Shown here piece by piece: positions 29,499 to 46,946 of a stretch of 64,000 nucleotides of DNA. Both the position numbers and the translations under genes were made by a program. The notes below the pieces were generated by a model. The model was given only the letters and a program-made list of their open reading frames with translations. It did not search any database and was not told the DNA's origin. Numbering within the stretch: the first letter of the stretch is position 1; each line of letters opens with the position of its first letter. This DNA comes from Sinohyriopsis cumingii (lineage: Eukaryota; Mollusca; Bivalvia; Unionida; Unionidae). Location: NCBI GenBank assembly GCA_028554795.2, contig CM068824.1, positions 160,511,630 through 160,575,629 on the forward strand, in the 5' to 3' direction.

Positions 29499-29504
29499 GA
29501 CGTC
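29499..29504. repeat. Target-site duplication of the Polinton, left (GACGTC)
   Basis: GACGTC precedes the terminus AGTAGTTAAG and recurs directly after the right terminus at 46,941-46,946. Six bases is the standard Polinton duplication. Because it is palindromic it looks like part of the inverted repeat. Confidence 0.92.
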
Positions 29505-29936
29505 AGTAGTTAAGTGGGATACTATACGTACAATGGGAATTAGCATTACGGAGACCCCTGGGACAATATACGTACAATGGAAATTTAACATGGCGAAAAA
29601 TCGTGGGTCAATATACGTACAAGGGGATTTAACATGGAGAAAAATCGTGGGACAATATACGTACAATGGAAATTTAACATGGAGAAAAACGCTGGGCCAC
29701 TTTAGGGACAATGGGAATTTAACATAGAGTTTGGGTCTGTCTAGGGACAAGGGAAATTAACATGGGAATAGAGTTTGGGTTTGTCTAGAGACAAGGGGAA
29801 TTGAATATGGGATTTTTTTTTTTTTTAAAGTTTTTTTAAATTTAAATTTAAATTTAAATTTAGAAAAGGGGTAGGCAATGGAAAGGCTATCTCTTTTCGA
29901 GAAATATGGCTGGCCCTGAAAAGGGCCTTTGGGTTT
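29505..29936 (+). repeat. Left terminal inverted repeat
   Basis: Matches 46,510-46,940 in inverse orientation, almost identical over about 430 bp. The outer two-thirds are tandem variants of a block with AATTTAACATGGAGAAAAA and either TATACGTACAA or TAGGGACAA. The inner third has an AT-rich (AAATTT)n stretch at about 29,838-29,862 and a histone-type stem-loop (minus strand). Confidence 0.96.
29912..29927 (-). terminator. Histone-type mRNA 3' stem-loop after gene 29,947-30,336
   Basis: Minus strand GGCCCTTTTCAGGGCC: six-base-pair stem with the TTTC loop, preceded by AAA and followed by AGCCA. A purine-rich element CTCGAAAAGAG (29,901-29,891) follows. The stem-loop starts 19 bases after the stop codon. 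Identical copy in the right terminal repeat. Confidence 0.85.
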
Positions 29937-29946
29937 TCTTCTGCTT

Positions 29947-30336
29947 CTAGTTTCTTCTTTTTCTCCACCAAGTTCTTATTTTATCTCCAACACTCTTTCT
30001 CTTCTTTTCTTTCTTTTTTTTCTCCTGCTCTTCTTTCTTCTTCTCTTCCTCCTCTTCTTTCCTCCTCTTCTTATTTTCTTCTTCTTTTTCAATCTTTTCG
30101 TTCCATTTGCTTATTCTTATTCTTTCCTCTTCATCCTCCTTCTCCTCCTTTATCTCTTTCATGACACCACTAATCTTGTCCTTTACCTTTTTTAAGTTAT
30201 TAATTTCCATCTTTACACGATGGGGACTATAGGAATAATGGTCTTCAACCAGTCTTATCAACATCTGCTCCATCATTCCTAAGTTGTCTAAAACGTCTTG
30301 TAATGTTTGTATTTTGTCCATTTGGTTAGAAGCCAT
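29947..30336 (-). CDS. Accessory protein A1 (helical, very Lys/Glu rich)
   Basis: A 129-aa protein I cannot assign to a family. Residues 1-50 look like an amphipathic helical region (QTLQDVLDNLGMMEQMLIRL). Residues 55-125 are a continuous charged coiled coil of Glu and Lys ending in a basic KRKSVGDKIRTWWRKRRN tail. The ATG is about 52 bp downstream of a TATA box (30,394-30,388) and of two copies of the accessory promoter motif. Its stop is 19 bases before a histone-type stem-loop in the left terminal repeat, so its mRNA is predicted to end without a poly(A) tail. The N-terminal region resembles those of A2 and A3, suggesting paralogues. Function unknown; a nuclear or nucleoprotein role is only a guess. 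Confidence 0.75.
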   Translation of the reverse strand: MASNQMDKIQTLQDVLDNLGMMEQMLIRLVEDHYSYSPHRVKMEINNLKKVKDKISGVMKEIKEEKEDEEERIRISKWNEKIEKEEENKKRRKEEEEEKKKEEQEKKKKEKKRKSVGDKIRTWWRKRRN

Positions 30337-30387
30337 CTTCTTTTTTTATTCTTTGCAGAATGGTTTGAACGACGAATACTGTGGGTT

Positions 30388-30495
30388 CTTATACTTAAAG
30401 CGCGTACGTGAAGGAAAACATCCCCCTAAAACGTAAAATTGACCTTACCTAGATCATGACCAAACAACGCGCGGACGTGAAGGAAAACATCCCCC
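30388..30495 (-). promoter_or_regulatory. Accessory promoter cassette of A1 (two motif copies plus TATA)
   Basis: On the minus strand the motif begins GGGGGATGTTTTCC and continues into TTCACGTCCGCGC. Copies lie at 30,495-30,467 and 30,426-30,397 (the latter CACGTACGCG). They are separated by a spacer containing ATCATGAC and AATTGACC that recurs upstream of A2. A TATAAG box follows the proximal copy at 30,394-30,388. The start codon is 52 bp further. Confidence 0.85.
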
Positions 30496-30517
30496 TACTT
30501 TTTCATTTCATATAATA

Positions 30518-31270
30518 AAACCCAAACTATACTCTCCACATACGCTAAGAAACAATAAACAAATCCATAATCTACTATCCACACAATCGTACGTGAGCGG
30601 GTACAAACACAAACACACAAACACAAACACACAAACACATACGCTAAGAAACAATAAACAAAATCCATAATCTACTATCCTCACAATCGTACGTGAGCGC
30701 TTACAAAACCCAAACTATACTCTCCACATACGCTAAGAAACAATAAACAAATCCATAATCTACTATCCACACAATCGTACGTGAGCGGGTACAAACACAA
30801 ACACACAAACACATACGCTAAGAAACAATAAACAAAATCCATAATCTACTATCCTCACAATCGTACGTGAGCGCTTACAAAACCCAAACTATACTCTTCA
30901 CATACGCTAAGAAACAATAAACAAATCCATAATCTACTATCCACACAATCGTACGTGAGCGCTTACAAAACCCAAACTATACTCTTCACATACGCTAAGA
31001 AACAATAAACAAATCCATAATCTACTATCCACACAATCGTACGTGAGCGGGTACAAACACAAACACAAACACACAAACACATACGCTAAGAAACAATAAA
31101 CAAATCCATAATCTACTATCCACACAATCGTACGTGAGCAGGTACAAACACAAACACACAAACACAAACACACAAACACAAACGCTAAGAAACAATAAAC
31201 AAATCCATAATCTACTATCCACACAATCGTACGTGAGCGGGTACAAACACAAACACACAAACACATACCC
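30518..31270. repeat. ~90-bp minisatellite inside the Polinton
   Basis: Eight units anchored by CATACGCTAAGAAACAATAA (about 30,539, 30,637, 30,728, 30,812, 30,900, 30,989, 31,080, 31,181). Each continues with ATCCATAATCTACTATCC, CACAATCGTACGTGAGCG and a variable (ACAAAC)n tail. Open frames on the minus strand (to 109 codons) reflect unit length and are not genes. Lies between the A1 promoter and the A2 3' end. Confidence 0.93.
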
Positions 31271-31365
31271 TCACACTATCTTTAAAAAGAGGTAGTGTTT
31301 ATATTCACACTACTCTACCTACACATTGGCAAATTGATGGTTATTTCTTTTCTAGAGTATTGGGT

Positions 31366-31381
31366 AGCCCTGAAAAGGGCT
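31366..31381 (-). terminator. Histone-type mRNA 3' stem-loop after gene 31,410-31,796
   Basis: Minus strand AGCCCTTTTCAGGGCT followed by ACCCA, with CTAGAAAAGAAAT (31,354-31,342) downstream like a histone downstream element. It starts 28 bases after the stop. The outer stem pair is A-T rather than G-C. Confidence 0.83.
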
Positions 31382-31409
31382 GTTTTTTTGGAACTTCATG
31401 GACACCTGG

Positions 31410-31796
31410 TTAATGGTGGCACCTTCCAGGCCTGGCGCCACATACACATCTTATCCCCCAGTTACTTTTTACTTTTTTGGGGGAGAGAGCAGAGGCAGGA
31501 TATGTCGCTTCAGAATCCCAATTTTCGCTCTCTGGGATTCTGAAATTTATTCTTCTTCTCTTCTTTTCCTTCTCCTCCTCCTCTTCTTTGTTTCTTCTCT
31601 CCTCCTCTTTGTATCTTCTTTCCTCTTCTTCTTCTTCTTTATATCTTCTCTCCTCCTCTTCTTTTTTTCTTCTTTCCTCCTCCTCTCTTATCCTTCCCTC
31701 CTCCACAATGGCTTCCGCGGCCAGTTCATTCAACAGGCGCCTGGCATATTCCAGATGCACATGAAGTTCCAACAGTTTAGACAGTCTCGTGTTCAT
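31410..31796 (-). CDS. Accessory protein A2 (coiled coil)
   Basis: A 128-aa protein of unknown family. Residues 1-32 form a hydrophobic helix (RLSKLLELHVHLEYARRLLNEL). Residues 33-85 are an uninterrupted Glu/Arg/Lys coiled coil with EEERRYKEEE repeats. The C-terminus is Cys/His containing (CVCGARPGRCHH). TATAAA lies at 31,854-31,849 just before the promoter motif, and the ATG is 53 bp below it. A histone-type stem-loop begins 28 bases after the stop. The layout, size and N-terminal helix parallel A1 and A3. The low-complexity coiled coil could expand by slippage, so its length may vary between copies. Confidence 0.72.
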   Translation of the reverse strand: MNTRLSKLLELHVHLEYARRLLNELAAEAIVEEGRIREEEERRKKEEEERRYKEEEEEERRYKEEERRNKEEEEEKEKKRRRINFRIPESENWDSEATYPASALSPKKVKSNWGIRCVCGARPGRCHH

Positions 31797-31848
31797 TTTT
31801 GGTGTTGATCAATCAACAAGGGTAGCTAGACTGCCCAGCGAGTTTCAA

Positions 31849-31960
31849 TTTATAGTGAAAGCGCGGACGTGAAGGAAAACATCCCCCTAAAAAAACATAA
31901 AATTGATGTTACCTACATCATGAACAAAAACAACAACGCGCGGACCTAAGAGAAACACTC
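31849..31960 (-). promoter_or_regulatory. Accessory promoter cassette of A2
   Basis: Proximal motif at 31,887-31,858 (GGGGGATG...CACGTCCGCGC), followed by TATAAA. A degenerate distal copy lies near 31,934-31,960 (GGTCCGCGC). The spacer with ATCATG... and AACATCAATT matches the A1 spacer, so the whole ~100-bp cassette is duplicated between genes. Confidence 0.83.
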
Positions 31961-32240
31961 ACTCACTTTTTTATGCTACCCATCACTATTTTAAATTTTT
32001 TTATAAATCACTTCATTAGACTATCCACATACGCAAAGCAATCCAATCTAACTCCAAATATACACCTCAAACACCAAAAAAACATGATTTTAATCTACTA
32101 TTCATACCAACTTACTTAAGCACTTACTAACACACAAACACATACCCTCACATTTTTAAAAAAGAGTTAGTGTTTATTTTCACACTACTCTACCTACACA
32201 CATTGGCAAATCGATCGTTATTTCTTTTCTAGAGTATTGG
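31961..32240. other. Spacer between A2 promoter and A3 3' end
   Basis: Carries ACACACAAACACATACCCTCAC and an AAAAAGAG(G/T)TAGTGTTTAT segment that also occurs before the A2 stem-loop (about 31,262-31,300). So the region below each accessory gene is duplicated too. An AATAAA on the minus strand near 32,178-32,173 could act as a backup poly(A) signal. Confidence 0.6.
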
Positions 32241-32243
32241 GGT

Positions 32244-32259
32244 AGCCATGAAAAGGGCT
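32244..32259 (-). terminator. Histone-type mRNA 3' stem-loop after gene 32,289-32,678
   Basis: Minus strand AGCCCTTTTCATGGCT followed by ACCCC; one stem pair is mismatched compared with the A2 copy. CTAGAAAAGAAAT follows. Starts 29 bases after the stop. Confidence 0.75.
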
Positions 32260-32288
32260 GTTTTTTTGTTTGCTATGGCATTCTTTTT

Positions 32289-32678
32289 TTAGTTTCTAAG
32301 AATGCGATGTCCTCTGAGGATAGACTTTCTGGCGATAGGTCTGCTTCTTCGGAAAGAAAAGAAGAACTCTTTGGTGTCGATACGGCAATCGACAAAGCCT
32401 CTGTCAGGTTCAGGTTGCTGCTGCTGCTGTTGTTGTTGTTGTTGCTGCTGTTGCTGCTGTCTCTGAAGTCTGTACTTCTCTGTCCATTCTTCTTTCTCCC
32501 TGTTCATTTCTTCTCTGAAGAGCTCTTCTATCAGGTCTTCAGTGACTTTTAACATTCTCACATTCTCTATTACTTCTGGCTTCGGTATCAGACTGTGTCT
32601 GACCCTATGCAAATTCACGTAGGCTTCGTTGAGTTTAGCTAGTTTGGAACACATCTTCTTAGGAGGATGAGTCGACAA
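32289..32678 (-). CDS. Accessory protein A3 (poly-Gln)
   Basis: A 129-aa protein of unknown family. Residues 8-32 contain a helix (KLAKLNEAYVNLHRVRHSLI) alignable by eye with the start of A1 and A2. Residues 40-70 are a Glu-rich helix, then a run of about 15 Gln (73-90) and a basic tail (RRSRPIARKSILRGHR). The promoter motif (32,746-32,717) and a weak TTAAAG box lie directly upstream. The stem-loop is 29 bases downstream. Probably a paralogue of A1 and A2. The Gln tract is CAG/CAA mixed, so it is not a pure triplet repeat. Confidence 0.75.
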   Translation of the reverse strand: MSTHPPKKMCSKLAKLNEAYVNLHRVRHSLIPKPEVIENVRMLKVTEDLIEELFREEMNREKEEWTEKYRLQRQQQQQQQQQQQQQQQPEPDRGFVDCRIDTKEFFFSFRRSRPIARKSILRGHRILRN

Positions 32679-32707
32679 TGGATGGTTAGACTGGAAACAA
32701 CCCGGTT

Positions 32708-32746
32708 CTTTAAGTCAAAGCGCGGACGTGAAGGAAAACATCCCCC
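32708..32746 (-). promoter_or_regulatory. Accessory promoter motif of A3
   Basis: The minus-strand motif GGGGGATGTTTTCC plus TTCACGTCCGCGC at 32,746-32,720 is identical over 27 bases to the A2 copy. TTAAAG replaces a true TATA box at 32,713-32,708, about 30 bp before the ATG. Confidence 0.85.
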
Positions 32747-32949
32747 ACACGGTTTTTGAGTCGCAACGTTTAGTGAGTGTCATGAGAGGGATAGTAAGAA
32801 ATGAAAGAGCATCAATCCAACATTCTTATAGCTAAACAAAAGACAAAGGCATTTTTTTCAAAACACAACATTTTTTTCCACAGTCTCATCACATTCCATC
32901 TTTAAAGTTTCTCCACTAGGTAAAGAGGGATAACAGTCTTCCATGGTTT

Positions 32950-34263
32950 CTAGTAATCTAGGATGACTTCTCTCAAACTGTTGATTTCTATGGTATTATC
33001 GAATTCTGCATACAGGATGACGTTCACCGTTTCATCAGGGTCTCGGTCTTTAAACTGAATTTCCACACGAATCTGGCCGGATTTTATAGGGTGGAACTGT
33101 CCCTCGTCGCTGCCTTGGTCTGGAGTGAAATCGAAAGCCCACAAAGCGTAGCCTCCAGCATAATCCTCGTACGTAATACCGTGACTGGTATTGGTTCCTA
33201 ACTGTCCGGTGGCTTCGTACAGGGACAAGTATGATCTCAAGTAATTCTTCTTGGTAAAGTCAGGTTCGAAAGGTCGGGTACATAAGGTCTTGCCATCGCG
33301 ACTGACTTCGATTTTGGACACGCCAAAGTGTTGAAAGTAGAAAGGATTTTTTTCGGCAGCTCCGTTGAAGGCTGTATTCTCGACAATACCAACGATCAAA
33401 CGTTTGGGTAACTGTCCTTGGAACAGATGATCTTCGATCATGGATCGCTGTCCCTTGGGAATGGTGAAGGTTTTCACTTCCACGCGTCGTATGGGATACT
33501 TGGCGGTCGTTCTGCTCAACGTCTGACTGATGTCGTTTCCCACTTTAGGTAACACTTCCACACGGCGTACGTAGAGTCTGGCTTCTAGGATTTTGGTTTT
33601 GTAACCGTCACTATCAGCCATCAAATGGAAAGCGGCACTGCTACGATTCAGTCTCAGGCGGACATCCACCCCGTTCAGCAAATACTTTTCTTGCAACCAC
33701 ATGTCCAAATGCAAACGATCCATCAGTTCTAAACTTGTGTCGGCTCCCGTGATTCTCTTTCTTCGTTCTACAAATCCATCATTGTTGTCTTTCTTTTCAT
33801 CAGTTTTCAATATTTCAAACTTGGTAGGTTCGTGAGCTTCCCATACCACACAGGCATTGAGATGAGTGTTCTTGGCATCTATTCCGTACGTCAAGAGATT
33901 TTCCAGGTAGGCACGATAAGGGTAAGTATCCATGCTGCTACTGACCAGTTTGTTATTCAAGTACAAGTCCACTCCACTGAACAAGGAATGCATGAAATTG
34001 TTGACGGGAGCTACTGCTTCATCGTCTATAGCACCTCCAGTCTTATCTAGAATTTTGACTTTCAGGTACAAGTAACTGCTATTCAGATCGATGTAATCTT
34101 CGGGCTGTCCTTTGATTTCAAACTCGATGGGAGCGGAATCGGTCAGTGAGGAGACGGGGTGAAATTCCACCCACTGGGATTCTTGCATGGTCATCATGGT
34201 AGGGGGCATGGCAAACAGATCCAGTTCCGTCTTGGAACAAGCGCAAGATTCTCGGTGCATCAT
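32950..34263 (-). CDS. Major capsid protein, double jelly-roll (F54H12.2-like)
   Basis: A 437-aa open frame, the expected size of the Polinton major capsid protein. Recognisable blocks are SCACSKTELDLFAMPPT, WVEFHPVSSLTDSAPIEFEI (first jelly-roll start), VNNFMHSLFSGVDLYLNNKL and TYPYRAYLENLLTYG, followed by a second half with WLQEKYLLNGVDVRLRLNRS and FTIPKGQRSMIEDHLFQGQL. Homologues are widely annotated in animal genomes as 'F54H12.2-like'. Structure comparison in the literature assigns this family (PY) to trimeric double-jelly-roll capsomers. No stop or frameshift interrupts it. TATAAG at 34,346-34,341 may drive it. Last gene of the core block. Confidence 0.93.
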   Translation of the reverse strand: MMHRESCACSKTELDLFAMPPTMMTMQESQWVEFHPVSSLTDSAPIEFEIKGQPEDYIDLNSSYLYLKVKILDKTGGAIDDEAVAPVNNFMHSLFSGVDLYLNNKLVSSSMDTYPYRAYLENLLTYGIDAKNTHLNACVVWEAHEPTKFEILKTDEKKDNNDGFVERRKRITGADTSLELMDRLHLDMWLQEKYLLNGVDVRLRLNRSSAAFHLMADSDGYKTKILEARLYVRRVEVLPKVGNDISQTLSRTTAKYPIRRVEVKTFTIPKGQRSMIEDHLFQGQLPKRLIVGIVENTAFNGAAEKNPFYFQHFGVSKIEVSRDGKTLCTRPFEPDFTKKNYLRSYLSLYEATGQLGTNTSHGITYEDYAGGYALWAFDFTPDQGSDEGQFHPIKSGQIRVEIQFKDRDPDETVNVILYAEFDNTIEINSLREVILDY

Positions 34264-34341
34264 TTTTTTTTTTTGTCTCTTTTCTCAATAATCGAAACCG
34301 TCTAAGTCTCGAACGGTTCTTCTTTTCTTGGCCTTTCTCGC

Positions 34342-34701
34342 TTATAGTCTGGTGAAAGTGTGTTTTCTTCGTCGTCTCTTTCTGCCTTGTCCTTGCTGAA
34401 TGCCTGACTCGGTAGCGTGCAGGGCATTTATAGGTGTTTCTCGTTGGCCTAAAATGTCTTTGCCCGTTTGCAGCAAGACATTTTTGCCTGCCCTCATGAA
34501 GGCTTCTTTAGGGTTTTGTTTGTCGATGATGACATTTTGGAGAAATTCTTTGCCTTGCGTCAGTGCCGCATCTTTCAAGGCGTGCAATCCGCGTGTCACC
34601 ATCGGTTTCAACACCGGGGCCACCGAACGAAAGGCCGATTTTAACATGTCTCCTAAGCCGTGTCCTCGCTGTCGAGCAACCCCTCGGTACACTGGATACA
34701 T
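34342..34701 (-). CDS. Small basic virion-type protein (119 aa)
   Basis: Conserved in position between capsid genes. N-terminus is Gly/Arg rich (VARQRGHGLGDMLKSAF), then two amphipathic helices, then a very basic C-terminal tract (GQGRKRRRRKHTF). The composition resembles adenovirus-like core or membrane-active cement proteins (pVI/pX type), but I see no motif that decides this. It begins 4 bases after the stop of the upstream capsid gene. TATAAAAG at 34,798-34,793, inside that gene, lies about 92 bp upstream. Frame intact. Confidence 0.78.
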   Translation of the reverse strand: MYPVYRGVARQRGHGLGDMLKSAFRSVAPVLKPMVTRGLHALKDAALTQGKEFLQNVIIDKQNPKEAFMRAGKNVLLQTGKDILGQRETPINALHATESGIQQGQGRKRRRRKHTFTRL

Positions 34702-34704
34702 GAC

Positions 34705-35628
34705 TTAAGAGTCGTGAGAGAACCGTTTTCGAAAATGGAGTTTCACCGTGACTTTTCCTTTGGTGAATGGAATATTTTGTCCCAAATCTCCTTTTATAGC
34801 AATGTTGACCGTGTCCAAATACGACTTGCTGACCGGCAAATAGTGAGGATGGACAAATTCGCGGTGGACGTGGTAAGTGTTTCCACCTTCCTCGTCAGTG
34901 TTCGTGGCAGAATCAACTTTGAAAGGAATGACACGCAGTAACGGTACGGAGGTGTGTCCCACCACGTTGTACTCCACCACATCGGAATACACGAACATCA
35001 AATTCAGTCCTTGGTTCAGTTCTACCGGGGCACGAAATAACTTGCTAAAAGACTCGTTGTCGTAAACGATGGGTAATTCGTTTTTCTTCATCATGGTCTT
35101 TCTCATGTTCATGTCTCCGCCCAACATGTCATACAATTCAGGACAAAATAAAATGGACAGGATTTTACTCCGTTCAAATTTCATCAAGAAGCGACGAGCT
35201 GCTTTGTGGTACTCCATGGTGACATTTTTGTTGACATGCTCCAAAGCTTTCAGAAACACGACATTAAACCTGGAGGTTATGGTGCTGACCAAATGTTGAC
35301 CACTAAAATAATAGCCTGGGGGAATGAACAAGTGATAGGTGGTGTACTTTTGTGTACGGGTTTTCTTGTCATATTTGACATTGCTATCCATCCACTGTTG
35401 CATTTGCTCGTCATGAACTTCCACATCAAAAAAATTTTGATTGGGAAGGACATTGAGGACTTGGGTCGGGTGAATCATTTCTACTAAAGCCACTTCCCAA
35501 TGGGCTTCGTGATCTAACTGGATGGCCTGAGGTAATTTGGCCGTGTAACAGCACAACGTGTTCTTGGGAAACACCTCCACAGAACTGTCACTGGGTAAAG
35601 TCAAGTAAAATTGGTTTTGGTGACTCAT
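34705..35628 (-). CDS. Minor capsid (penton-like) protein candidate
   Basis: A 307-aa protein with the N-terminal signature FYLTLPSDSSVEVFPKNTL and WEVALVEMIHPTQVLNV, found in Polinton proteins next to the major capsid gene. Literature assigns the corresponding family (PX) to a single jelly-roll minor capsid or penton protein; assignment here is by that N-terminal block, length and synteny. Further blocks are YTTYHLFIPPGYYFSGQHL and FKVDSATNTDEEGGNTYHV. The ATG overlaps the stop of the upstream membrane gene by 4 bases (ATGA). Intact. Confidence 0.85.
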   Translation of the reverse strand: MSHQNQFYLTLPSDSSVEVFPKNTLCCYTAKLPQAIQLDHEAHWEVALVEMIHPTQVLNVLPNQNFFDVEVHDEQMQQWMDSNVKYDKKTRTQKYTTYHLFIPPGYYFSGQHLVSTITSRFNVVFLKALEHVNKNVTMEYHKAARRFLMKFERSKILSILFCPELYDMLGGDMNMRKTMMKKNELPIVYDNESFSKLFRAPVELNQGLNLMFVYSDVVEYNVVGHTSVPLLRVIPFKVDSATNTDEEGGNTYHVHREFVHPHYLPVSKSYLDTVNIAIKGDLGQNIPFTKGKVTVKLHFRKRFSHDS

Positions 35629-36050
35629 AATTCCAGAGTTCTGTGGCTGTCCGAGGGGTTACTGGACGTCAGAGGCGTGTCTCCGTCTAAAATGGGGTTC
35701 TGGTTGTGATTGAAGTGGTGACTGGCACTGGCACTGGACACAAGGTTCCCGGGGTTCCCGTTCGAGGTGAATTTCAGGGAGGGATTAGGAAGCAGGTAAC
35801 CGATGCAACTGCTCAATAAAATGGTCCACAATTGTTTGTCTCCTTGTTGCAAACTGAAATTGGCGATGGCTGCCCCGATGACACAATACACCACGAAGAT
35901 TTGGCAGAAAAAGACGATTTGCGTTTTAGGCACACGTTCTCCACACCACACCCACAAGGGTTGTTTTTGTAAATCTTGCACAGAAGAACTAGGTGAAGGA
36001 GGAGTGGTCGACGTAGCTGCGTCTGCTGTGTGAAAGGGCATGATGGTCAC
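35625..36050 (-). CDS. Two-TM membrane protein of the capsid block
   Basis: A 141-aa protein. Residues 45-66 (VFFCQIFVVYCVIGAAIANF) form a transmembrane segment, and residues 72-90 (LWTILLSSCIGYLLPNPSL) a second hydrophobic segment. The YLLPNP end followed by a short polar tail is shared, as far as I recall, with small proteins at this locus in other animal Polintons. N-terminal 30 residues are Ser/Pro/Thr rich. Start overlaps the integrase stop and stop overlaps the minor capsid start, both by 4 bases, so these genes are tightly packed. Role unknown; a virion membrane component is plausible. Confidence 0.78.
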   Translation of the reverse strand: MTIMPFHTADAATSTTPPSPSSSVQDLQKQPLWVWCGERVPKTQIVFFCQIFVVYCVIGAAIANFSLQQGDKQLWTILLSSCIGYLLPNPSLKFTSNGNPGNLVSSASASHHFNHNQNPILDGDTPLTSSNPSDSHRTLEL

Positions 36051-37255
36051 TTCTTTTTATAGTCGATGACTTGCGAAGCGTCGATCCAAGAATCGAAACT
36101 GGGTGGATATCCTTTCCAACGTACTTTGACTTCTTTGACACGTCGTTTGCCCACTTTACGGGTTCTGCGTTCGAGAATGCTTTCGATGTCGTACACGTCG
36201 TCTTCTTTTTTGGTCACACGTTGTAACTCAGGCAAATAAAACGTTCCTTTGAGCACTTCTCCGTTCATGTCTTCCAATTTATAGACGGTAGGATGACGGC
36301 CATGCACTCGTCCAGTGACGCGAAACAATTCGGTCGTCCAGTTAGGTAAGTAACCTTTGTCGAAAGTGCGTGTGGTTTTGCCAATGCGCACCCAATCTCC
36401 TACGACCAACATTCCACTTTTCTCGGGGACAGCCCTCGTCGGGGACGTACCAAACAGACGCTGAAACACCAACACTTCGTTGTCAGGAGTCACGTCTTGC
36501 GGGGCACGTCCGATGCTTCGATGGTAAGACTGGTTGTACGCTTGCACCAGGTGCGGTAAGATGTCGATGTACTTCAGAGTGTGGTGATGCGTAAAATATT
36601 TCCACATGCGTTCTTTCAAAGTGCGTTGAAAACGTTCCACGATGCTGGCTTTGGTTTCGGGATTCTCGGTGGTAAAAAAATGAATGTCACGTTTCTTTAA
36701 TTCTTTTTGGAAAGCTTGGTTCAGAAATTCGGTGCCTTTGTCCGTTTGCCATCGAAGAGGGTGACGACCGCTTTGTTTCAACACCCGTTGCAGGGCTCGC
36801 ACTAACTCGCTGCTGGATTTGGAAGTCAAGGGCACGACCCAGGCAAATTTGGAAAAGACGTCGATGACACAAAACAAATATTTGTAGCCACGATTGTAGC
36901 TGGCCAAATGAGAGACATCGGCTAAATCGGCTTGCCATTGATGATCGATGCCTTCCACTCGGGTGCGACTTCTGGCAAACTTGCGTCGAATGGGTTTGTG
37001 TAAAGTGTAGGTAGCTTGTTCTTGTAACCATCGTTGCACTTGAGGTAAACGGAGACTTTTCAGTCGCGTTTTGGCAGCACGATACAATTTTTGAACTCCT
37101 GCGTAACCTGCAGGATGGGAGGGATCGTAGTAAATGCTAAGACTTTTTCCATTTTTTGTTTGTTTGTTAATAAGACACCCACTCTTGGAGGATGCTACTC
37201 TTTTTCTCTTGGGGTATTTTCTTGGATTGCAATGCTTTGCGTGTGCGGCCAGCAA
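36047..37255 (-). CDS. Retroviral-type integrase with chromodomain
   Basis: The open frame is 402 aa, but its first ~36 residues overlap the preceding gene and are probably not native. The family-typical start, SLSIYYDPSHPAG, begins near residue 38. The DDE catalytic triad is D110 (HQWQADLADV), D172 (WQTDKGTEF) and E207 (SIVERFQRTLKERM). A C-terminal chromodomain occupies about residues 347-397 (YDIESILERR, VKVRWKGYPPSFDSWI), which in related elements targets insertion through histone marks. An ATG at 37,153 directly after the upstream stop is one base out of frame, beside a run of A. Catalytic residues are intact. Confidence 0.95.
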   Translation of the reverse strand: MLAAHAKHCNPRKYPKRKRVASSKSGCLINKQTKNGKSLSIYYDPSHPAGYAGVQKLYRAAKTRLKSLRLPQVQRWLQEQATYTLHKPIRRKFARSRTRVEGIDHQWQADLADVSHLASYNRGYKYLFCVIDVFSKFAWVVPLTSKSSSELVRALQRVLKQSGRHPLRWQTDKGTEFLNQAFQKELKKRDIHFFTTENPETKASIVERFQRTLKERMWKYFTHHHTLKYIDILPHLVQAYNQSYHRSIGRAPQDVTPDNEVLVFQRLFGTSPTRAVPEKSGMLVVGDWVRIGKTTRTFDKGYLPNWTTELFRVTGRVHGRHPTVYKLEDMNGEVLKGTFYLPELQRVTKKEDDVYDIESILERRTRKVGKRRVKEVKVRWKGYPPSFDSWIDASQVIDYKKK

Positions 37256-37814: not shown

Positions 37815-37862
37815 GGGGTTGTCAGGGGTCGATTCTGAGATCTTGGAACTTCCCAGGCCTTT

Positions 37863-38246: not shown

Positions 38247-38305
38247 CTTTGAGTCTTCAGGAGCACCAAAAAAACACTGATACCCGACTTGGTCACAGGC
38301 CTTTT

Positions 38306-39226: not shown

Positions 39227-39282
39227 GTTCGCACTGAGAGTGAGACAGACGAAAAAGGGTCTGAGGTTTTTACAGATTTTTT

Positions 39283-40026
39283 TTATGTGGAGTGAAATGA
39301 AGTCGAGGACGGAGACGTGTACAGGACAGGCCCTCCGTCTTGGCACCAGTGGTGAAACAAGTGGGTACGAAATCGCAAATCCTCAGGAGTCGTAGGTTTC
39401 AAATCGACGAGTAAATAGGCGTGTGGCGTTTGAGTGGCATCGTCGTACGCCTGAGTCAGCCAAGGCGTTCCTAACTGTTTGGCTAAGACTTGCACTTGCG
39501 ATTTATCTCGAGGGCTTTTAAACAAGACCACGTAATGCGCATTGAGACTGATGGTGCGATGGGCTTTACTTTGTTGAAACAAATTTTGGGTGATGTAAAC
39601 GACACTGGCATTACGGTGATGCCCTTTGCGCGTGAACCACAGTTTAATTTCTTCTTCGTCTTCTCCTAACATGTCGTCGAAAATGACCAAATGGGTTAGA
39701 CGGGAGTCAGAGACGATGCCATCGTCTTCTTTAGGAATGCCTTCCACAAACACGATGGAATCGCCTTGACTTTCTCGCTAGAGGCTGTACGCCGATTGCC
39801 ACTCTTTGTAACACCACACGATTCGTTGAGGGGGTCGATCGATCAAATGATGTTTATGTTCGATCAAACGTTTGACGAATTCGGTTTTGCCTGAACCGCT
39901 AGGTCCAGCAATGAGCATGTTAAAGGGATGGCGAAGATACAAAGCCTCCCAACTGGCACGATCTAAGTGTTCGTCGATGACTTTGACAGTAGAGGAAGAG
40001 GGAGCTGAGACAGCAGAGGTAGCCAT
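39283..40026 (-). pseudogene. Packaging ATPase (FtsK/HerA, A32 type), one in-frame stop
   Basis: The Walker A loop is MLIAGPSGSGKTEF (about 39,920). Walker B is LVIFDDMLGE (about 39,690), and a downstream sensor-like VVYITQNLF fits the A32/FtsK packaging ATPases of Polintons. The two halves are in the same frame, separated by a single TAG at 39,778-39,780. About 248 codons in all, near the usual family size. I take the ATG at 40,026 as start because TATATAAA (40,081-40,074) is 48 bp above it. Readthrough is possible but nothing supports it; a nonsense mutation is simpler. Confidence 0.9.
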
Positions 40027-40073
40027 GGTGTGAGAAATGTCACTTGTGACACGAAAAACAAACAAGACAAGAG

Positions 40074-40081
40074 TTTATATA
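40074..40081 (-). promoter_or_regulatory. TATA box of the packaging ATPase gene
   Basis: Minus-strand TATATAAA, 48 bp upstream of the chosen ATG. Confidence 0.7.
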
Positions 40082-40096
40082 CTTTTTCAGAACACG

Positions 40097-40102
40097 TTTA
40101 TT
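40097..40102 (-). terminator. Poly(A) signal downstream of the polymerase block
   Basis: Minus-strand AATAAA, about 145 bp after the stop of the 89-aa ORF. No histone-type stem-loop is found here, in contrast to the accessory genes. Confidence 0.55.
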
Positions 40103-40246
40103 GAATGTTTCAAACATGAATACGAAAGACAAAAATGCATAAAAGCCAAAGGCTTAAGTACAAGAATAAAAGGCACATGATAACCATGAACGTGGAATAA
40201 ACACAAGTGTCTGTACAACATGTTTTGGGTAAAGTTCTAACCAGTT

Positions 40247-40516
40247 CTATAGTAGGGGTAAGGTCACACAAGTGTCCTCCCGAAAGGGTCTTTCAGGCCT
40301 GTCCACGACAGTCCTGTCCTGGGTGACGGGTTCTTCTGGCACCGTCACTAACACAGGTTGAAAAGTAACTTTTTTCCTTGAATAACTCTCGTGCATACTG
40401 GGCCACCTCTTGTGTCCAAGCCTCAAAACCCTGGTCTCGGTGATGTCCAACATTTGACTCCTAACCAATCTGGTTTCTTCTTCGTCAACGACATGGTAAG
40501 TTACTTCAATGAACAA
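40247..40516 (-). CDS. Unknown 89-aa protein after polymerase
   Basis: Starts 4 bases after the polymerase stop, with MFIEVTYHVVDEEETRLVRS. No domain recognised. The Pro/Val-rich C-terminal half (FQPVLVTVPEEPVTQDRTVV) may be disordered. Tight coupling to the polymerase and its own position before a poly(A) signal suggest it is real, but it could be a chance frame. No TATA box of its own. Confidence 0.5.
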   Translation of the reverse strand: MFIEVTYHVVDEEETRLVRSQMLDITETRVLRLGHKRWPSMHESYSRKKVTFQPVLVTVPEEPVTQDRTVVDRPERPFREDTCVTLPLL

Positions 40517-40520
40517 TGAA

Positions 40521-43500
40521 CTATCGATCTTGCCTAGGGTTCCTTTTCATATACAGACCAATACCAACGTGACCGTACGGTAGGGTAAAGTGATTGGGAA
40601 GTCGCACTCGCTTCTGGTATACAATTTGATAGACTTTTTCCAAGGGTCGACTGACGATGTGGTGAGTGGGTAAACGTACAATCTTGTTCGGTTGATAGGT
40701 GGTCACTTTAAAGTTTCCATCCTCTCCCGATTGCAAGGCTTCTTTCAATACCCCAAAGTTGACCACTCGACTGGTACGATGATTCAGAGTCAGTCCTTTC
40801 ACTTTGCACGTCGTGTGCACTTCTCCTTGTTTGTCCCGGTATTCGTAGCCGTAATTTTTGGGACCACCACTGACGAAACTTAGAATCTTGTCGTCGGGAT
40901 GCTCGTCTGTCCAGGCTCCTAAACGGTCTCCTTCGATGTCAGGGTGCTGTTGAATCGGGTGATGGATGTAAATGCAACTGTCCGTGTCAAAGTACAGGAC
41001 GCGTTCTTCTAACAGTTCTAAAGCTTCGTACAATTTTAAGCGAGCATGAGCTGTCACGTAAGCCGCAATGATGACGTTTCCAAAAGGATCGTCTTGTACA
41101 AAGTCCAGATCTTCTTCGTAATTGACCAAGATCAAACCCTCTCGAACGACGTCCACGTGTTTCATGTATTTGGTTTTGTCGTGAATCATCTGGAAGTAGC
41201 GGGAAGGTTCTGTCAAATATTCCGTCTTGGGTAAACACGGTCGTTGTGCCATTTTACCCCACAAGCAATTTAACATCACTTTGGCAAACGATCGCCTGCC
41301 TTCGTTTTTTTCGATGTGGTCTAAAGAGATGCCTTCTTGTGCGTAGTATTTCTCTTTGAATTGTATTTGGTCTTCGGGAGTGTGACACCAGGAAGGATAG
41401 CCGCTGGCTTCTTGTTTCATTTTCAAAAAGGCATCCACGTAGTCGGCGAAAATGACTTTCTGAGTAGGGTCACCCTTGTGGTACTGTTGTGTCTTGGGAA
41501 AGTGGCAAATTTCGTACACTTCTAACAGTTGGTATCCCATGTCCAGAGCTTTGAACAATTCCACGCTGACCCAGGTTCCCGTCAAGGCACGTTCTTCCTG
41601 GCTGTGATGGCAAGGTTGGTCCTGGTTGCACGTTTCGGCACAAGTACGGCACAAGGGAAACATCAGTTTGCCTTGACAATGGTGAGGTAAGACGGGATGG
41701 TATAGGTTCGTGGGAGGCAAAACTTTACACTTGATCAAGCCTTCGTATTGTCGAATGTTTTTCAGGTCGATGTGTTCCGTGAACAATTGCGGGTGCCCTA
41801 CAGGAAAGCGACAATATTTGCACACGTAGGGATACAGCGAACACACGTCCAAGTATTTGATTTCTTCTCCTTTCTCTTCGTCGGCTTGGTACAGCAAACA
41901 GGTGGCATTGGTCCTTCCTCCGTACAAACTATCCCTCGGGTTCAGCGGGTCCATGAACTGGTAACTTTCCACGAGGCGTTTAAACTCGGGATCGGTTTTC
42001 AAACGGTGATCGTACTCGTGTTCCCACATTTCCACCACTTGGTATCCTTGCTGTTCTAACTTTAGGCGTCGCTGACAAGTGTCCTGGTACAAGTCTTCCA
42101 TGGTTCGTTGCAAAAACTGATTTTTAGTGTCACGGTCAGGGTAACAGACGGGACATCCGTGAAATAAGCATCCGTTAAACTCGTACACAATCTTGGGGTT
42201 TTCTAAGTCCCAGCCATCTACCGAATACGTTCCGATGGTCTTTTCACCCCCTCCGTTGCGGGCATGCTGAATCCATTTGTGTTCCTTGTCGCACAAGTAA
42301 TGTAACCAACGTAGGGCTTTGACCGAGTATTGACGCTTGACATAGTGGGTCGTTTGAGGACTGATGACAGCCACGGTGTTTTCAGGCATGAATCGTTGGC
42401 GGTACACTAAGGAACACGCTTTGGCAATGGTGCAAGCTTCTTTCAAAGGATCGACCCCTCCGTGTTCCATGAACAGTTCTCGAAATTTTCCACAGCAACG
42501 CCGTAAAATGTCCACGTCGGAACGACAATACTTTAACATTTCTTCCTGAAAGTCGAAAGGGTCCGAGTCGTGAGCTTGGTGCCAAGCGTAGAAAGCTTCT
42601 CGTTGTTCGGTACGCATGTTGTCGGGGTCGTAATAGTGAGCCTCAGGCAAATGGTGTAGAACAGCATGTTGATTGGCTTCCGTATTGAAAAAGTGTGGAA
42701 AGTACCCTTTAGCCATTTCTGTCATTCCAAACGTTTTAGGCATTCGGCTCAAAGGCATGGCCAAGTAACTTATCGAATCTTGAAACTGTACTTGTCCCAC
42801 TTGCATGAAAATGATTTTGGCTCCGTTCAAAATCACTTTAGGACGTTCGGTGCCATGTTCCGTATAGTACCTCAAAAGAAACTGTCCATCGTATCCGGAG
42901 AAATTGTGAGTCATCACCGTGGCATGACGATGACAATCTCCGTAACGTTCGATGTCCTCTTGCTCCACGTCTTGTCGATGGGGTCTAAGACCCATTGGGC
43001 AAAATCGGCTAACGTGTTTGGTCCCCGAAAGATTTTTTCACGTCCTCCAGGAATCTTGCTGCAGTGAGGGCAATGACTGAAGATAGGTTCTTGAATGCAC
43101 TTCTCGCACGCTTGATGTGCCACGCAGAAATTAGGGATGTGAATGCCAGTCTCTTGCATGCATTCGAAATCGAAAAAGATGAAATTGCCTTTCTTCTTGT
43201 GACCGTCCTCTTTCTCTGGTGGGGGTTGGTATTTTTGCACGTAACATTCGTGTTCCAAGTCCACGATGTGGTGACAAATGTGACATTTTTTCTTTCCTCG
43301 ACATACGTGTGCCTTGGCATTGTTGGTAAGTATGCCTTGTCCACACGTAGGGCACAATCTCAGGAATTGACAAGCACATTTCTTCTGTGAACCTTGTGTT
43401 TTCAAATGTTGCTGGTAACAGGTAGGGCTGACAAACGTGCGCAGACAAGTCGAACAAGGCACTGGTTCTTCGCTCAGACAGGGTGGAGAGGCCAAACATC

Positions 43501-44584
43501 CTGGGCATTTCAATCCACAATGCTTGTGTTGCTCTCGATTGTTATAACCATACTCACATTTCTCACAATAATAACCGTATCCCAGGAATCCGGTGATACT
43601 GGTAATGGTATCGAAATGGTCATCGTGATAATAAAGGTGAATGTATTTTCCGTCCTTAAAATCCTGGCCTCGAAACAACAGAGACCCGCGCATTTCTTGA
43701 GGGTGCACTTTCAAGGTGTAGCGTGGAGCTAGGGCATCTTGCAATTTTTGCATCTCAGGAATGCCACAGGGTGTGTCTTTGGACAGGCCAGCTTGTTACA
43801 ACAGGAGTTCTGCTTCGTTTCGTTGTTTGGCTCGATCGGATCGTTGAATAGTGTTCCAGGTTCTTTTCCATTCTGTCGTGTCGTTCTTGTTGGCATAGGT
43901 TCGTCCCACCACGATGGCACGGGCTAAACACATCTGGTCATGAGGATTGTGAATTTGGACAAGACTACGCTTAATGCTGCGAAGCTCGTTCACCAATAAC
44001 ATCTTTTTGCGTCCTGTCCCTTGAGGAAGAGAGACGTGGGCCATTTTCAGTGTGGCTTTACCATCGGTGATGTCAAACTGGTCATTAGATTGTTGTACGT
44101 GTTGAATCTTGTCCATGATTTTGGAAGGGATTAGTTCTGCAGGTCTGCTAAACTCGATCCAAACAGGGGATTTCAAACCGTCGTGATCTATGGATAGTGT
44201 CAAGCAATCGTCTTCTTTGGGTTGACATTGTCGCTTGAGTGCGGTGAGCAAAGAATCCCACATCTCGGTGATGAACCCTTCTGCTTTCTCCAACGGTACG
44301 TCGGACTTGAAATCTTTAAACTTCACCGTGTAGGTGTAAGCCGTGGTTCTAAATTTTCTAGAGGAGCGCTTTTCCGTCTCTCGAATGGAATAGTATTTTT
44401 CAGGGTTGACTAAGGGTGACGAACTTGGTTTAGAGGTTTCAAATTCTGGTTCACTCATGTCCTCTTCAAAATCACTGGCATGAATCTGTGCCAAGATTTC
44501 AGCCCTGGTACGAGGCGATAGATCACGTTTCTGCCTCTTACTTTCTTCTTCTTCTTTCTTCTCGAATGAATGGGATCGTTTCAT
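40521..44584 (-). pseudogene. Protein-primed family B DNA polymerase, one stop and one frameshift
   Basis: Three open pieces: 44,584-43,796 (N-terminal 262 codons, ending at a TAA at 43,796-43,798), 43,753 onwards in the same frame, and 42,995-40,521 in another frame; the shift lies between 42,914 and 42,995. The N-terminal piece ends with MCLARAIVVGRTYANKN, typical of Polinton polymerase preludes. A Cys-rich region at 43,600-43,280 may bind zinc. Exonuclease motifs are FFDFEC (43,170), HNFSGYDGQF and YCRSDVDIL. Polymerase motifs are YLDVCSLYPY (A), KVMLNCLWGK (B) and YFDTDS (C). All catalytic Asp are kept. About 1,354 codons in total. TATAAA at 44,638-44,633 is about 50 bp upstream. Confidence 0.95.
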
Positions 44585-44719
44585 CTTGAGTGCAAAACGT
44601 CAAATGACTCAAGTTTAAACACCATAGACTAATTTATAGTCTTGGCAAACCAGCGTATATAAAAAGGGTGTGTGTCTTGTCCTTTCACTATTCATTTCAC
44701 TCTCAAGCTGAGCACAACG
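44585..44719. promoter_or_regulatory. Divergent promoter, polymerase / zinc-knuckle gene
   Basis: The 135-bp spacer holds TATAAA on the minus strand (44,638-44,633) and TATATAAA on the plus strand (44,656-44,663), back to back with 17 bases between. Each is 50-60 bp from its ATG. Confidence 0.8.
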
Positions 44720-45192
44720 ATGGAAGAGACTACCCAGATGGAACGTTTCGTCAGAGCTTTGCGAGGGGTCATTAGAAAATTCTCTTGAGACCAGCCGACG
44801 GACTACTCTCCTTCCTTTCGAGATAAAAGTCAAGATACTTGCTATATCTGTAAGAAGAAAGGGCATTGGTCTTCAGAGTGTCCAGACCGTCAAAAAAGAA
44901 AAAAAAAACAGGGGCTAAAAAAGACAAAAGTCAAGATACCTGTTATTATTGTAAAGAAAAAGGACATTGGTCTCCAGATTGCCCAAAAAAGAAACAAGAG
45001 GAGTCAGAAGAAAAGAAGGATTCTTCAGAAGAAGAGAGGGATTCTTCGGAATAAGAGAGGGATTCTTCAGAGGAAGAAGAGGAAGAAAGAAGACAATTCT
45101 ATTTAAAAGAGGCAAAGAAACAGGAGAAGAAAAGAAGAAGGGAAGAAAATGAGGAAAAAACGGTGAAGAAATTCAAAAAACAGAGAGACTAA
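44720..45192 (+). pseudogene. Tandem CCHC zinc-knuckle protein, decayed
   Basis: A plus-strand gene with a good TATA box and an ATG at 44,720. Its frame meets a TGA at 44,786-44,788, then shows a CCHC knuckle (CYICKKKGHWSSEC). After an A-rich run at about 44,890-44,908 the frame shifts, and a second, nearly identical knuckle appears (CYYCKEKGHWSPDC). A Glu/Ser-rich acidic tail follows, with a TAA at about 45,052, continuing open to 45,192. Both knuckles have the C-x2-C-x4-H-x4-C spacing of retroviral nucleocapsid. The two units (each preceded by DKSQDTCY) look like an internal duplication. Single-stranded nucleic acid binding is the expected activity. Not a standard Polinton gene; could have been captured from a retroelement gag. 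Confidence 0.8.
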
Positions 45193-45438
45193 ACAAGGAG
45201 AAAGAAGAAGTTTACGAACTTTTTAAAGTGTTCTGTGGTGAATTGTGAATTGGATTGTAAAAAATGGATAAAAGAATACATGAATGATATAAGGTAAGTG
45301 TCTTTGAGTTTTGATTTTAAAATAAGAAGCTACACTCACGCACTCATACACAGACACGTACTATAAGGCTAAAATGGGTGGGGTTTATTTTTGAGTTATT
45401 GGCAAATTGAAATTGTATTTCTTTTCGAGAAATGTGGG
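45193..45438. other. Spacer, Polinton
   Basis: AT-rich, no gene. TTATTGGCAAATTGA at about 45,397-45,411 also occurs below the A2 and A3 stem-loops. Minus-strand AATAAA at 45,389-45,384. Confidence 0.6.
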
Positions 45439-45439
45439 T

Positions 45440-45455
45440 GGCCCTGAAAAGGGCC
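45440..45455 (-). terminator. Histone-type mRNA 3' stem-loop after gene 45,481-46,041
   Basis: Minus strand GGCCCTTTTCAGGGCC followed by ACCCACA, matching the animal histone consensus at every position, with AAA upstream and CTCGAAAAGAAAT (45,429-45,417) about 10 bases downstream. It starts 25 bases after the stop. An AATAAA about 50 bases further on could be a backup signal. Confidence 0.9.
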
Positions 45456-45480
45456 TTTTTATTTTGGTGTAGGGGTGAGT

Positions 45481-46041
45481 TTAACCAATCAACTTTAACT
45501 GCCTTAAGCCTTTGCCACGGCCAAGGCCTACTTCTGATGATTGGGTTGAAATCACTAAGGGTGGTACGACAGGCTTAGTCACAGGGTTGGCGTGTTTAGC
45601 TCGGGAAGGTCGTATTCTCTTCGGTCGTGATAAAGAAGTCTGATACATTTGTTTCAGACTTCTTAACTCCGCTAAAATGTCCAACAGTACCGTAGCCGTT
45701 TGATTTTCACCCTCTTGTTTCTTTGCTGCTACTTCTTCTTGCTGTTGTTGCTGTTGTTTTTTTCTTACCTCTTCTTGTTGCTGTTGCTGTTGCTGTAGGA
45801 GAAAAGCTTGTTCCGCTTCCTTTTGTCGTTGCATAAATTTCTCCAATTCTTCTTTCTGTCTCTGTCTAAAATTCTCCACTTGCGGTAATGAAGAAGGTAA
45901 CGAAGGTTCCGGAACAAATTCTTGCGAGGTAAGAAAATCCACAAAATCCCAATGTACCTCTTCTGAAAGTAAGTCCGGGTTCCCTTGGGCAGTCTCCCCT
46001 GCTGGTGCACCCCAATGGATCGTTTTCTGAGTTTCCGTCAT
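45481..46041 (-). CDS. Accessory protein A4 (Gln-rich coiled coil)
   Basis: A 186-aa protein with no family I recognise. Residues 1-50 are acidic (SEEVHWDFVDFLTSQEF). Residues 55-110 form a Gln/Glu/Lys coiled coil (RQRQKEELEKFMQRQKEAEQ and poly-Gln blocks). Residues 115-135 are a leucine-rich helix (VLLDILAELRSLKQMY). The rest is basic and Pro-rich (RPKRIRPSRAKHANP). TATATAG lies at 46,096-46,089 and two CCAAT boxes and a CRE further up. A perfect histone-type stem-loop follows the stop. Divergent to A5. Unlike A1-A3 it lacks the GGGGGATG motif. Confidence 0.78.
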   Translation of the reverse strand: MTETQKTIHWGAPAGETAQGNPDLLSEEVHWDFVDFLTSQEFVPEPSLPSSLPQVENFRQRQKEELEKFMQRQKEAEQAFLLQQQQQQQEEVRKKQQQQQQEEVAAKKQEGENQTATVLLDILAELRSLKQMYQTSLSRPKRIRPSRAKHANPVTKPVVPPLVISTQSSEVGLGRGKGLRQLKLIG

Positions 46042-46260
46042 GTTGAATCACTGTCGCATAGATTGACTACACACAAGCGCTAGCGAATCTATATAGACCA
46101 ACTGACGTCACAGACTACTCTCTTCGGATTGGATGCGGGCTGACTGAATTTTGTAACGCGTGTTTGGATTGGTGAATGAACTCAATCCGTTTCAATCCTG
46201 CCTCTACCTATAAATAAGCGCAGTTCAGTGCATTGATTCACCTGTTCTCGTCGCTTCAAG
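46042..46260. promoter_or_regulatory. Divergent promoter A4 / A5 with CRE, CCAAT and two TATA boxes
   Basis: Minus-strand side: TATATAG (46,096-46,089), perfect CRE TGACGTCA (46,103-46,110), CCAAT at 46,132-46,128 and 46,172-46,168. Plus-strand side: TATAAATA (46,209-46,216), 45 bp before the first ATG at 46,261. CCAAT plus TATA between divergent genes resembles replication-dependent histone gene pairs. Confidence 0.8.
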
Positions 46261-46494
46261 ATGTGGACCGATGTGTAATCTTCTACGCTTGTGTCTTCCA
46301 TGATGTTCCGGACGGACATACCCATGTATGTCCGATCCAAGTGGGCCGTTGTCCACAGGACAAACACCAGCCTGTGGATACGTAGGATCTACGTAGAAAG
46401 ACAAGGATGCCTGAAAAGAGTGCTGATTTACGGACCAACAGTGAGACGTAGCCTAAGGACAAGAAGAAGACCAATGCGGTACCATTTATGTTAA
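46261..46494 (+). pseudogene. Accessory gene A5 (small Arg-rich protein), early stop
   Basis: The first ATG below the TATA box is 46,261, but a TAA follows five codons later (46,276-46,278). The same frame stays open from there to 46,494. A second start, ATGATG at 46,300, would give 64 aa containing FRTDIPMYVRSKWAVVHR and a very basic end (RRSLRTRRRPMRYHLC), with about 15 Arg. Either the gene has a nonsense mutation or translation starts at 46,300. A histone-type stem-loop in the right terminal repeat begins 24 bases after the stop. It is the only plus-strand accessory gene and points outward like A1 at the other end. Family unknown; protamine- or core-like composition. Confidence 0.65.
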
Positions 46495-46509
46495 TGAATA
46501 CATTAACAT

Positions 46510-46940
46510 AAACCCAAAGGCCCTTTTCAGGGCCAGCCATATTTCTCGAAAAGAGATAGCCTTTCCATTGCCTACCCCTTTTCTAAATTTAAATTTAAAT
46601 TTAAAAAAAACTTTTTAAAAAGAAAAAAAAAATCCCATATTCAATTCCCCTTGCCCCTAGACAAACCCAAACTCTATTCCCATGTTAATTTCCCTTGTCC
46701 CTAGACAGACCCAAACTCTATGTTAAATTCCCATTGTCCCTAAAATGGCCCAGCGTTTTTCTCCATGTTAAATTTCCACTGTACGTGTATTGTCCCACGA
46801 TTTTTCTCCATGTTAAATCCCCTTGTACGTATATTGACCCACGATTTTTCGCCATGTTAAATTTCCATTGTACGTATATTGTCCCAGGGGTCTCCGTAAT
46901 GCTAATTCCCATTGTACGTATAGTATCCCACTTAACTACT
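46510..46940 (-). repeat. Right terminal inverted repeat
   Basis: Inverse of 29,505-29,936. Small differences: CTAAAATGG versus CTAAAGTGG and GTGTATTG versus CGTATATTG in the outer units, and slightly different A/T tract lengths at about 46,590-46,632. Confidence 0.96.
46519..46534 (+). terminator. Histone-type mRNA 3' stem-loop after gene A5
   Basis: Plus strand GGCCCTTTTCAGGGCC followed by AGCCA and CTCGAAAAGAG (46,545-46,555). Starts 24 bases after the stop at 46,494. Same sequence as in the left terminal repeat. Confidence 0.85.
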
Positions 46941-46946
46941 GACGTC
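46941..46946. repeat. Target-site duplication of the Polinton, right (GACGTC)
   Basis: Matches 29,499-29,504; see the element entry. Confidence 0.92.

Follow-up and report, generated by a model that had tools for sequence, protein, structure and literature searches.

A Polinton of the adintovirus kind, lying at positions 29505-46940 of a 64,000-nucleotide stretch of the bivalve Sinohyriopsis cumingii genome (GCA_028554795.2, contig CM068824.1, positions 160,511,630 to 160,575,629, forward strand; hereafter the window), carries five stem-loops with downstream purine-rich elements, each placed just after an open reading frame (ORF). Among animal mRNAs, a single major class is made without poly(A), and histone-type ends are its hallmark; in histone pre-mRNA, the combination of stem-loop and downstream element directs cleavage without polyadenylation. 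Scoring with a covariance model supports the assignment of the five sites as histone-type 3′ elements, and we consider it most likely, with a probability of roughly 70%, that stem-loop and downstream element would direct such cleavage here as well. A first-pass annotation had reached a similar reading and had gone on to propose a separate class of accessory genes coupled to host S phase. Its histone-type elements stand, as do their sense orientation and the spacing of the purine element, and they are joined by a conserved island and a homologue with the same module; the separate S-phase class, however, is not shown.

Five stem-loop modules resemble metazoan histone 3′ ends

Hairpins with a TTTC loop occur at five places, namely 29912-29927, 31366-31381, 32244-32259 and 45440-45455 on the minus strand and 46519-46534 on the plus strand, and we refer to them in that order as A to E. 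A, D and E share exactly one sequence, GGCCCTTTTCAGGGCC, as the first-pass annotation had it, whereas B reads AGCCCTTTTCAGGGCT and C reads AGCCCTTTTCATGGCT. The six-pair stem ascribed to all five, with its UUUC-type loop, is intact in A, B, D and E; in C, stem pair 5 is broken. Each hairpin belongs to a module of about 40-50 nucleotides (nt) made up of an A-rich 5′ flank, the 6-bp stem, the UUUC loop, ACCCA or a variant of it, and GAAAAGARAU. After a spacer, the stem-loop is followed by GAAAAGAGAT in module A (29889-29927, minus) and by GAAAAGAAAT in modules B (31343-31381, minus), C (32220-32259, minus) and D (45417-45455, minus); module E (46519-46557, plus) has the sequence of A. The purine element GAAAAGA(A/G)AT, correctly reported downstream of every hairpin, starts 13 nt after the stem-loop in A, B, D and E and 14 nt after it in C. 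Its AAAAGAG is presumably complementary to the CUCUUUU of human U7. A further conserved stretch, ATTTGCCAAT, lies 8-9 nt past the purine element on the minus strand in B (31325-31334), C (32202-32211) and D (45398-45407).

In a scan of the whole window with the Rfam Histone3 model (RF00032) at its gathering score of 34 bits, three matches were returned: D (45416-45460; 41.2 bits, E = 9.6e-9), A (29887-29932; 35.6 bits, E = 1.2e-6) and E (46514-46559; 35.6 bits, E = 1.2e-6). Lowering the threshold to E ≤ 5 over 29000-47200 added B (31341-31386; 31.0 bits, E = 1.8e-5) and C (32220-32264; 19.1 bits, E = 0.51). No Histone3 match beyond these was found in 29000-47200 (E ≤ 5), in the left flank (E ≤ 1) or, with the gathering score as cut-off, anywhere else in the window.

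Hairpins of this general form can arise by chance or act as ordinary terminators, and the bare 18-mer AAGGCYCTTTTCAGRGCC does occur in 18 stretches of IMG/VR whose contexts read as phage-like. However, none of the 10 of these 18 stretches that were run through Rfam scored as Histone3; among 20 IMG/VR stretches with hairpin plus ACC, 19 lack GAAAAGA in the 45 nt examined and one ends early, and the combination of hairpin, ACCCA and GAAAAGA has no occurrence in IMG/VR (0 stretches). Within the window, a motif scan allowing up to 2 mismatches gave 4 matches against 0.02 expected, a count reached by 0 of 100 shuffles. As a further control, we collected every hairpin in the window with six stem pairs, G-T counted as a pair, and a loop of TTTC, TTTA or TTTT; 4 of the 22 are the sites described here, and in none of the other 18 do the 35 nt examined contain ACC together with GAAAAGA. 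Shuffles, window control, Rfam and the IMG/VR scans together led us to reject a chance hairpin or phage-type terminator, to which we give next to no weight.

The modules follow reading frames and form a conserved island

All five stem-loops lie in the sense of the ORF that precedes them. A follows g129 (29947-30336, minus; 129 amino acids (aa), charged and lysine/glutamate-rich), B follows g128 (31410-31796, minus; 128 aa, arginine/glutamate-rich), C follows g121 (32289-32654, minus; 121 aa, with a glutamine run), D follows g186 (45481-46041, minus; 186 aa) and E follows g64 (46300-46494, plus; 64 aa, very basic, isoelectric point 11.8). The distances from stop codon to stem are 19, 28, 29, 25 and 24 nt for A to E, within the 19-29 bases given by the first-pass annotation. 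As background, the zone 15-35 nt beyond the stop codons of ATG ORFs with at least 60 aa takes up 3.6% of element positions on the minus strand and 2.0% on the plus strand. The earlier statement that the hairpins end all five accessory genes holds insofar as each follows an ORF in sense, but it counts one feature of the terminal inverted repeats (TIRs) twice, and g64, for which a homologue search found nothing, is unproven as a gene and may not be one.

The double count arises because A and E are a single sequence at the inner edge of the left (29505-29936, plus) and right (46510-46940, minus) TIRs, which are 100% identical over their inner 96 bp, so that there are four distinct copies of the module. 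Two of these are themselves close: B and C match at 80% over 69 nt, and a further 71 nt downstream match at 82%, which makes the pair a local duplication. We therefore rejected the notion of five independent sites.

The modules nonetheless form a conserved island. We compared all six pairs among the four copies without gaps in 25-nt blocks. The block that begins with the stem-loop is 72-92% identical across all six pairs; in the following block, identity is 68-80% when C is not part of the pair (three pairs) and 32-40% when it is (three pairs), a one-base insertion in C shifting the register. The remaining 16 blocks per pair are 8-52% identical, with a mean near 30%. When folded alone, A, B, D and E have the hairpin in their minimum-energy structure. 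At stem pair 1, A and D have G-C where B and C have A-U.

Such a block might instead function at the DNA level, perhaps as a binding site. The opposite strand reads TTCGAGAA in A, D and E, where TTCnnGAA, which we take to resemble a heat-shock element, overlaps the purine element; the TIR location would also suit a DNA site. Yet B and C carry TTCTAGAG at that place, and the block always sits 3′ of a stop codon, in sense, with the hairpin, the ACC and the spacing of an RNA element, making a role as DNA improbable.

A homologue in another element, and relatives without the module

For the conserved accessory gene g186, a search at E ≤ 1 returned 20 homologues, 17 with E below 1e-39, and one of the 16 that were aligned, P0133 (62% identical by BLASTP), is a protein that continues past the usual end of the family. 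Its tail, IQWPISGPPTSLEKRY, is the translation of the module. Over 48 nt, the tail requires 5 substitutions to match D, 7 to match A and E, 10 to match B and 14 to match C; the best unrelated of 127,904 placements requires 14. In a tblastn search of the window with the P0133 tail, the top five matches are the five modules. Thus the hairpin and purine element follow a g186 homologue in another element as well. This second occurrence is read from the protein alone, and the closing stem pair, an A opposite an unreadable base, cannot be judged. In the other 15 aligned homologues no translation of the module is visible, so they are uninformative on its presence. By reading, another protein, P0140, joins a g186-family start to a piece like ORF 43796-44584, a fusion that an internal deletion in some related element could have produced.

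More distant relatives did not yield the module. We fetched seven contigs with a related capsid gene (major capsid protein 25-45% identical) from bacterial metagenome-assembled genomes (MAGs), taken as animal DNA in bacterial assemblies. Over the parts that they cover, five of these (L019-L023) have no Histone3 match at E ≤ 5, and matches to R1, our own model built from the four window copies, do not exceed 16.3 bits (E = 0.55) in any of the seven. R1 scores 79.5-91.2 bits in the window by construction, having been built from those copies, and its best match among the relatives is an AT-rich stretch of L020 without a hairpin. These contigs cover the accessory region in part, with L019 stopping about 1.3 kb past the capsid ORF, and inverted repeats of at least 60 nt were found in none of L019, L020 and L023. 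IMG/VR gave no module through capsid and polymerase queries, nor through the g186 family. Absence from related Polintons, which the first-pass annotation had named as evidence against its reading, thus describes all seven fetched relatives over the parts covered but not the closer g186 homologue. On an IMG/VR contig (L017), two type II hammerhead ribozyme matches lie above the gathering score, at 13-80 and 5897-5960.

Evidence against histone-type ends

Several observations weigh against histone-type processing at these sites. Two of the five, B and C, fall below the Rfam gathering score, and as a local duplicate pair they say little of constraint. Covariation amounts to one pair in four sequences, with 87 of 500 shuffles as high. 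In copy C, with its broken pair, the hairpin is absent from the minimum-energy fold, while in A, D and E that fold pairs the purine element with preceding sequence in a second small hairpin, which would need to open for U7 pairing. None of the seven relatives shows the module over the parts covered (five by Rfam, seven by R1). Finally, AATAAA occurs 17 and 91 nt past the g186 stop and 110 nt past the g121 stop, so that ordinary polyadenylation is possible near D and C; the signal at 17 nt precedes stem-loop D.

Some of these points would suit a passive relic, left from a single capture of a host histone 3′ end that was then copied along with small genes whose mRNAs are polyadenylated from the nearby AATAAA. 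Copy C is decaying, AATAAA lies close to C and D, and the authors of a study of Tm1-HH transposons discuss possible capture of a host sequence (PMC3169594). We nevertheless regard a relic as rather unlikely: the island keeps 72-92% identity even though the flanks of A and D no longer align with B, and the module persists after a g186 homologue that is 62% identical in protein.

Which transcripts the modules would serve

In agreement with the first-pass annotation, no Histone3 match lies directly after any core gene (29000-47200, E ≤ 5). The claim built on this, that the accessory genes form a separate class coupled to S phase, is not supported. AATAAA or ATTAAA occurs within 150 nt past the stop in 0 of the 12 core ORFs, and the core ORFs lie on the minus strand, reading toward C, B and A. 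Since neither signal is there and the core ORFs face the same stem-loops, these modules may terminate the core transcripts too, and a separate gene class is not shown. The element contains 0 E2F consensus sites against 1.6 expected (200 simple shuffles), which is not a significant lack, and LXCXE occurs in no accessory ORF and once elsewhere, in ORF 34705-35628. S-phase coupling is something we infer only from the pathway's role for histone genes.

If core transcripts do end there, the modules could be genuine histone-type ends shared by all minus-strand transcripts, core and capsid included, with terminators at 32.2, 31.4 and 29.9 kb and no S-phase class. This differs from the explanation that we favour in scope, not in biochemistry, and the orientation of the listed core ORFs, like their want of a canonical poly(A) signal, fits it. 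The poly(A) negative, however, covers AATAAA and ATTAAA, non-canonical signals not having been searched, and module D precedes the core block and so cannot serve core genes. Moreover, a 30-nt motif common to g129 (30397-30426, one base different), g128 (31858-31887) and g121 (32717-32746), on the minus strand in each case, ends 60-62 nt before the ATG, so each of these genes seems to own a promoter. We see a shared terminator as the strongest of the alternatives, though still an unlikely one.

Taken with their 3′ modules, g129, g128 and g121 resemble repeats of a one-gene cassette about the size of a histone gene. A TATA-like site begins 58 nt before the ATG of g128, 54 nt before that of g186 and 91 nt before that of g64; the strict TATA pattern has no fit before g129 and g121. 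None of the ORFs appears to encode a histone: g186 has no Pfam histone match, and g129, g128, g121 and g64 are not histone-like by reading only. The structure model of g186 consists of one long helix (residues 53-137) with low overall confidence (predicted template modelling score (pTM) 0.26). Its basic patch PKRIRPSRAK, almost invariant in the alignment as PKR-RPSRAK, may be a nuclear signal.

Between g129 and g128, at 30429-31302, lies a tandem array with units of about 88 and 174 nt, many of which carry AATAAA on the plus strand.

Proposed mechanism and known systems

In the explanation that we favour, a 3′ module of the replication-dependent histone type would have been multiplied to follow at least four ORFs, namely g129, g128, g121 and g186. 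Host SLBP would bind the stem-loop, the purine element would be recognised through pairing by the U7 small nuclear ribonucleoprotein, and cutting just past the hairpin would fall to the histone cleavage complex. The products would be short mRNAs without poly(A) that the host would stabilise and translate mainly in S phase. At either end of the element, the TIR copies A and E would close outward transcripts and trim the TIR off: identity between the two TIRs sets in 9 nt ahead of the stem-loop, and a cleaved outward transcript would therefore keep the hairpin and lose the remaining TIR. AATAAA near C and D would permit a second, polyadenylated end, and the element may therefore have both kinds of 3′ end, histone-type and polyadenylated.

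The modules share with the metazoan replication-dependent histone mRNA 3′ end (RF00032) the 6-bp stem, the UUUC loop, the A-rich 5′ flank, the ACCCA-like cleavage region, the purine element at 13-14 nt and the short distance from the stop. They differ in that the ORFs here do not appear to be histone genes and in that the use of SLBP and U7 is one that we infer. Co-existence of both end types has a counterpart in human histone genes. In PMC9756948, the stem-loop and downstream element are described as directing cleavage without polyadenylation, and some histone genes as using nearby poly(A) signals to make polyadenylated mRNA. There, H2AC18 carries a poly(A) signal close to its stem-loop and downstream element, and human H4 is said to have one that precedes the stem-loop, as in copy D; unlike the ORFs studied here, H2AC18-type genes are host histone genes whose switch of ends was shown by experiment.

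Outside histone genes, our literature searches provisionally found one precedent in a mobile element, the non-coding Tm1-HH transposons of root-knot nematodes (PMC3169594). Tm1-HH is likewise a mobile element with inverted-repeat ends, and its transcript bears a histone hairpin close to the 3′ end; its authors state that, prior to their Cg-1, no source of the motif other than histone genes had been known. However, Tm1-HH elements are of the Mutator/Foldback type, non-autonomous and without obvious coding potential, with the hairpin between the TIRs, whereas the element here is a Polinton with several modules that follow ORFs, one copy inside each TIR, and a purine element. For Polintons we found no description of a histone-type end in the open-licence literature, which makes the novelty provisional; the word ‘stem-loop’ has 0 occurrences in PMC11071296 and PMC11071308. 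Nor did we recognise a virus with histone-type ends in the wider open-licence literature, judged by titles and abstract openings.

A broader proposal, which we put forward tentatively and at somewhat less than even odds, is that a lineage of animal Polintons runs its small accessory genes on the histone mRNA machinery, as SLBP-bound, poly(A)-less mRNAs of S phase, with the signal also in the TIRs to finish outward transcripts at both ends likewise. If true, a virus-like element would have a gene class whose timing is set by the type of mRNA 3′ end, and transcripts that escape detection in poly(A)-selected RNA libraries would be accounted for. A coding virus-like element using such ends on several genes would represent a new expression link to host DNA replication.

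Element, termini and core genes

The element's ends were read from the sequence. It is flanked on either side by GACGTC, a 6-bp target duplication, and its TIRs are about 430 bp each, composed of 44-45-nt repeats at 29514-29802 and 46643-46931. With a family B polymerase, an rve integrase with chromodomain, a double-jelly-roll capsid protein, TIRs and the 6-bp duplication, it has the features of Polintons and adintoviruses.

The major capsid protein (32950-34263, minus; 437 aa) has 1020 homologues at E ≤ 0.001. Among 120 listed, the named organisms are mostly bivalves (Mercenaria 52-53% identical, oysters 44-47%), and one homologue comes from a bacterial MAG, a spread that makes a mollusc the probable host. 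Pieces of reverse transcriptase in the left flank of the element are in keeping with an animal genome. Its structure model (pTM 0.83) matched, by Foldseek, the double-jelly-roll capsid proteins of an iridovirus, Sputnik, PBCV-1 and mavirus with template modelling scores of 0.5-0.65. The integrase with chromodomain lies at 36047-37255 on the minus strand (PF00665, 3.4e-14; PF00385, 1.4e-7).

The polymerase region (40521-43753, minus) consists of two overlapping ORFs in different frames, of which the larger (40521-42995) has a Pfam match to family B DNA polymerase (PF03175, 9.7e-44) and the other (42914-43753) has none. As the polymerase is split over two frames, this copy of the element may be disabled. 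ORF 39283-39753, assigned as the ATPase by position, has no Pfam match at E ≤ 0.01; the penton and ATPase labels are ones that we presume for core ORFs, without Pfam support here.

On the plus strand at 44720-45192, two CCHC zinc-knuckle-like motifs were recognised by reading, without a long open frame; this is the sole core-side feature that we noticed on that strand.

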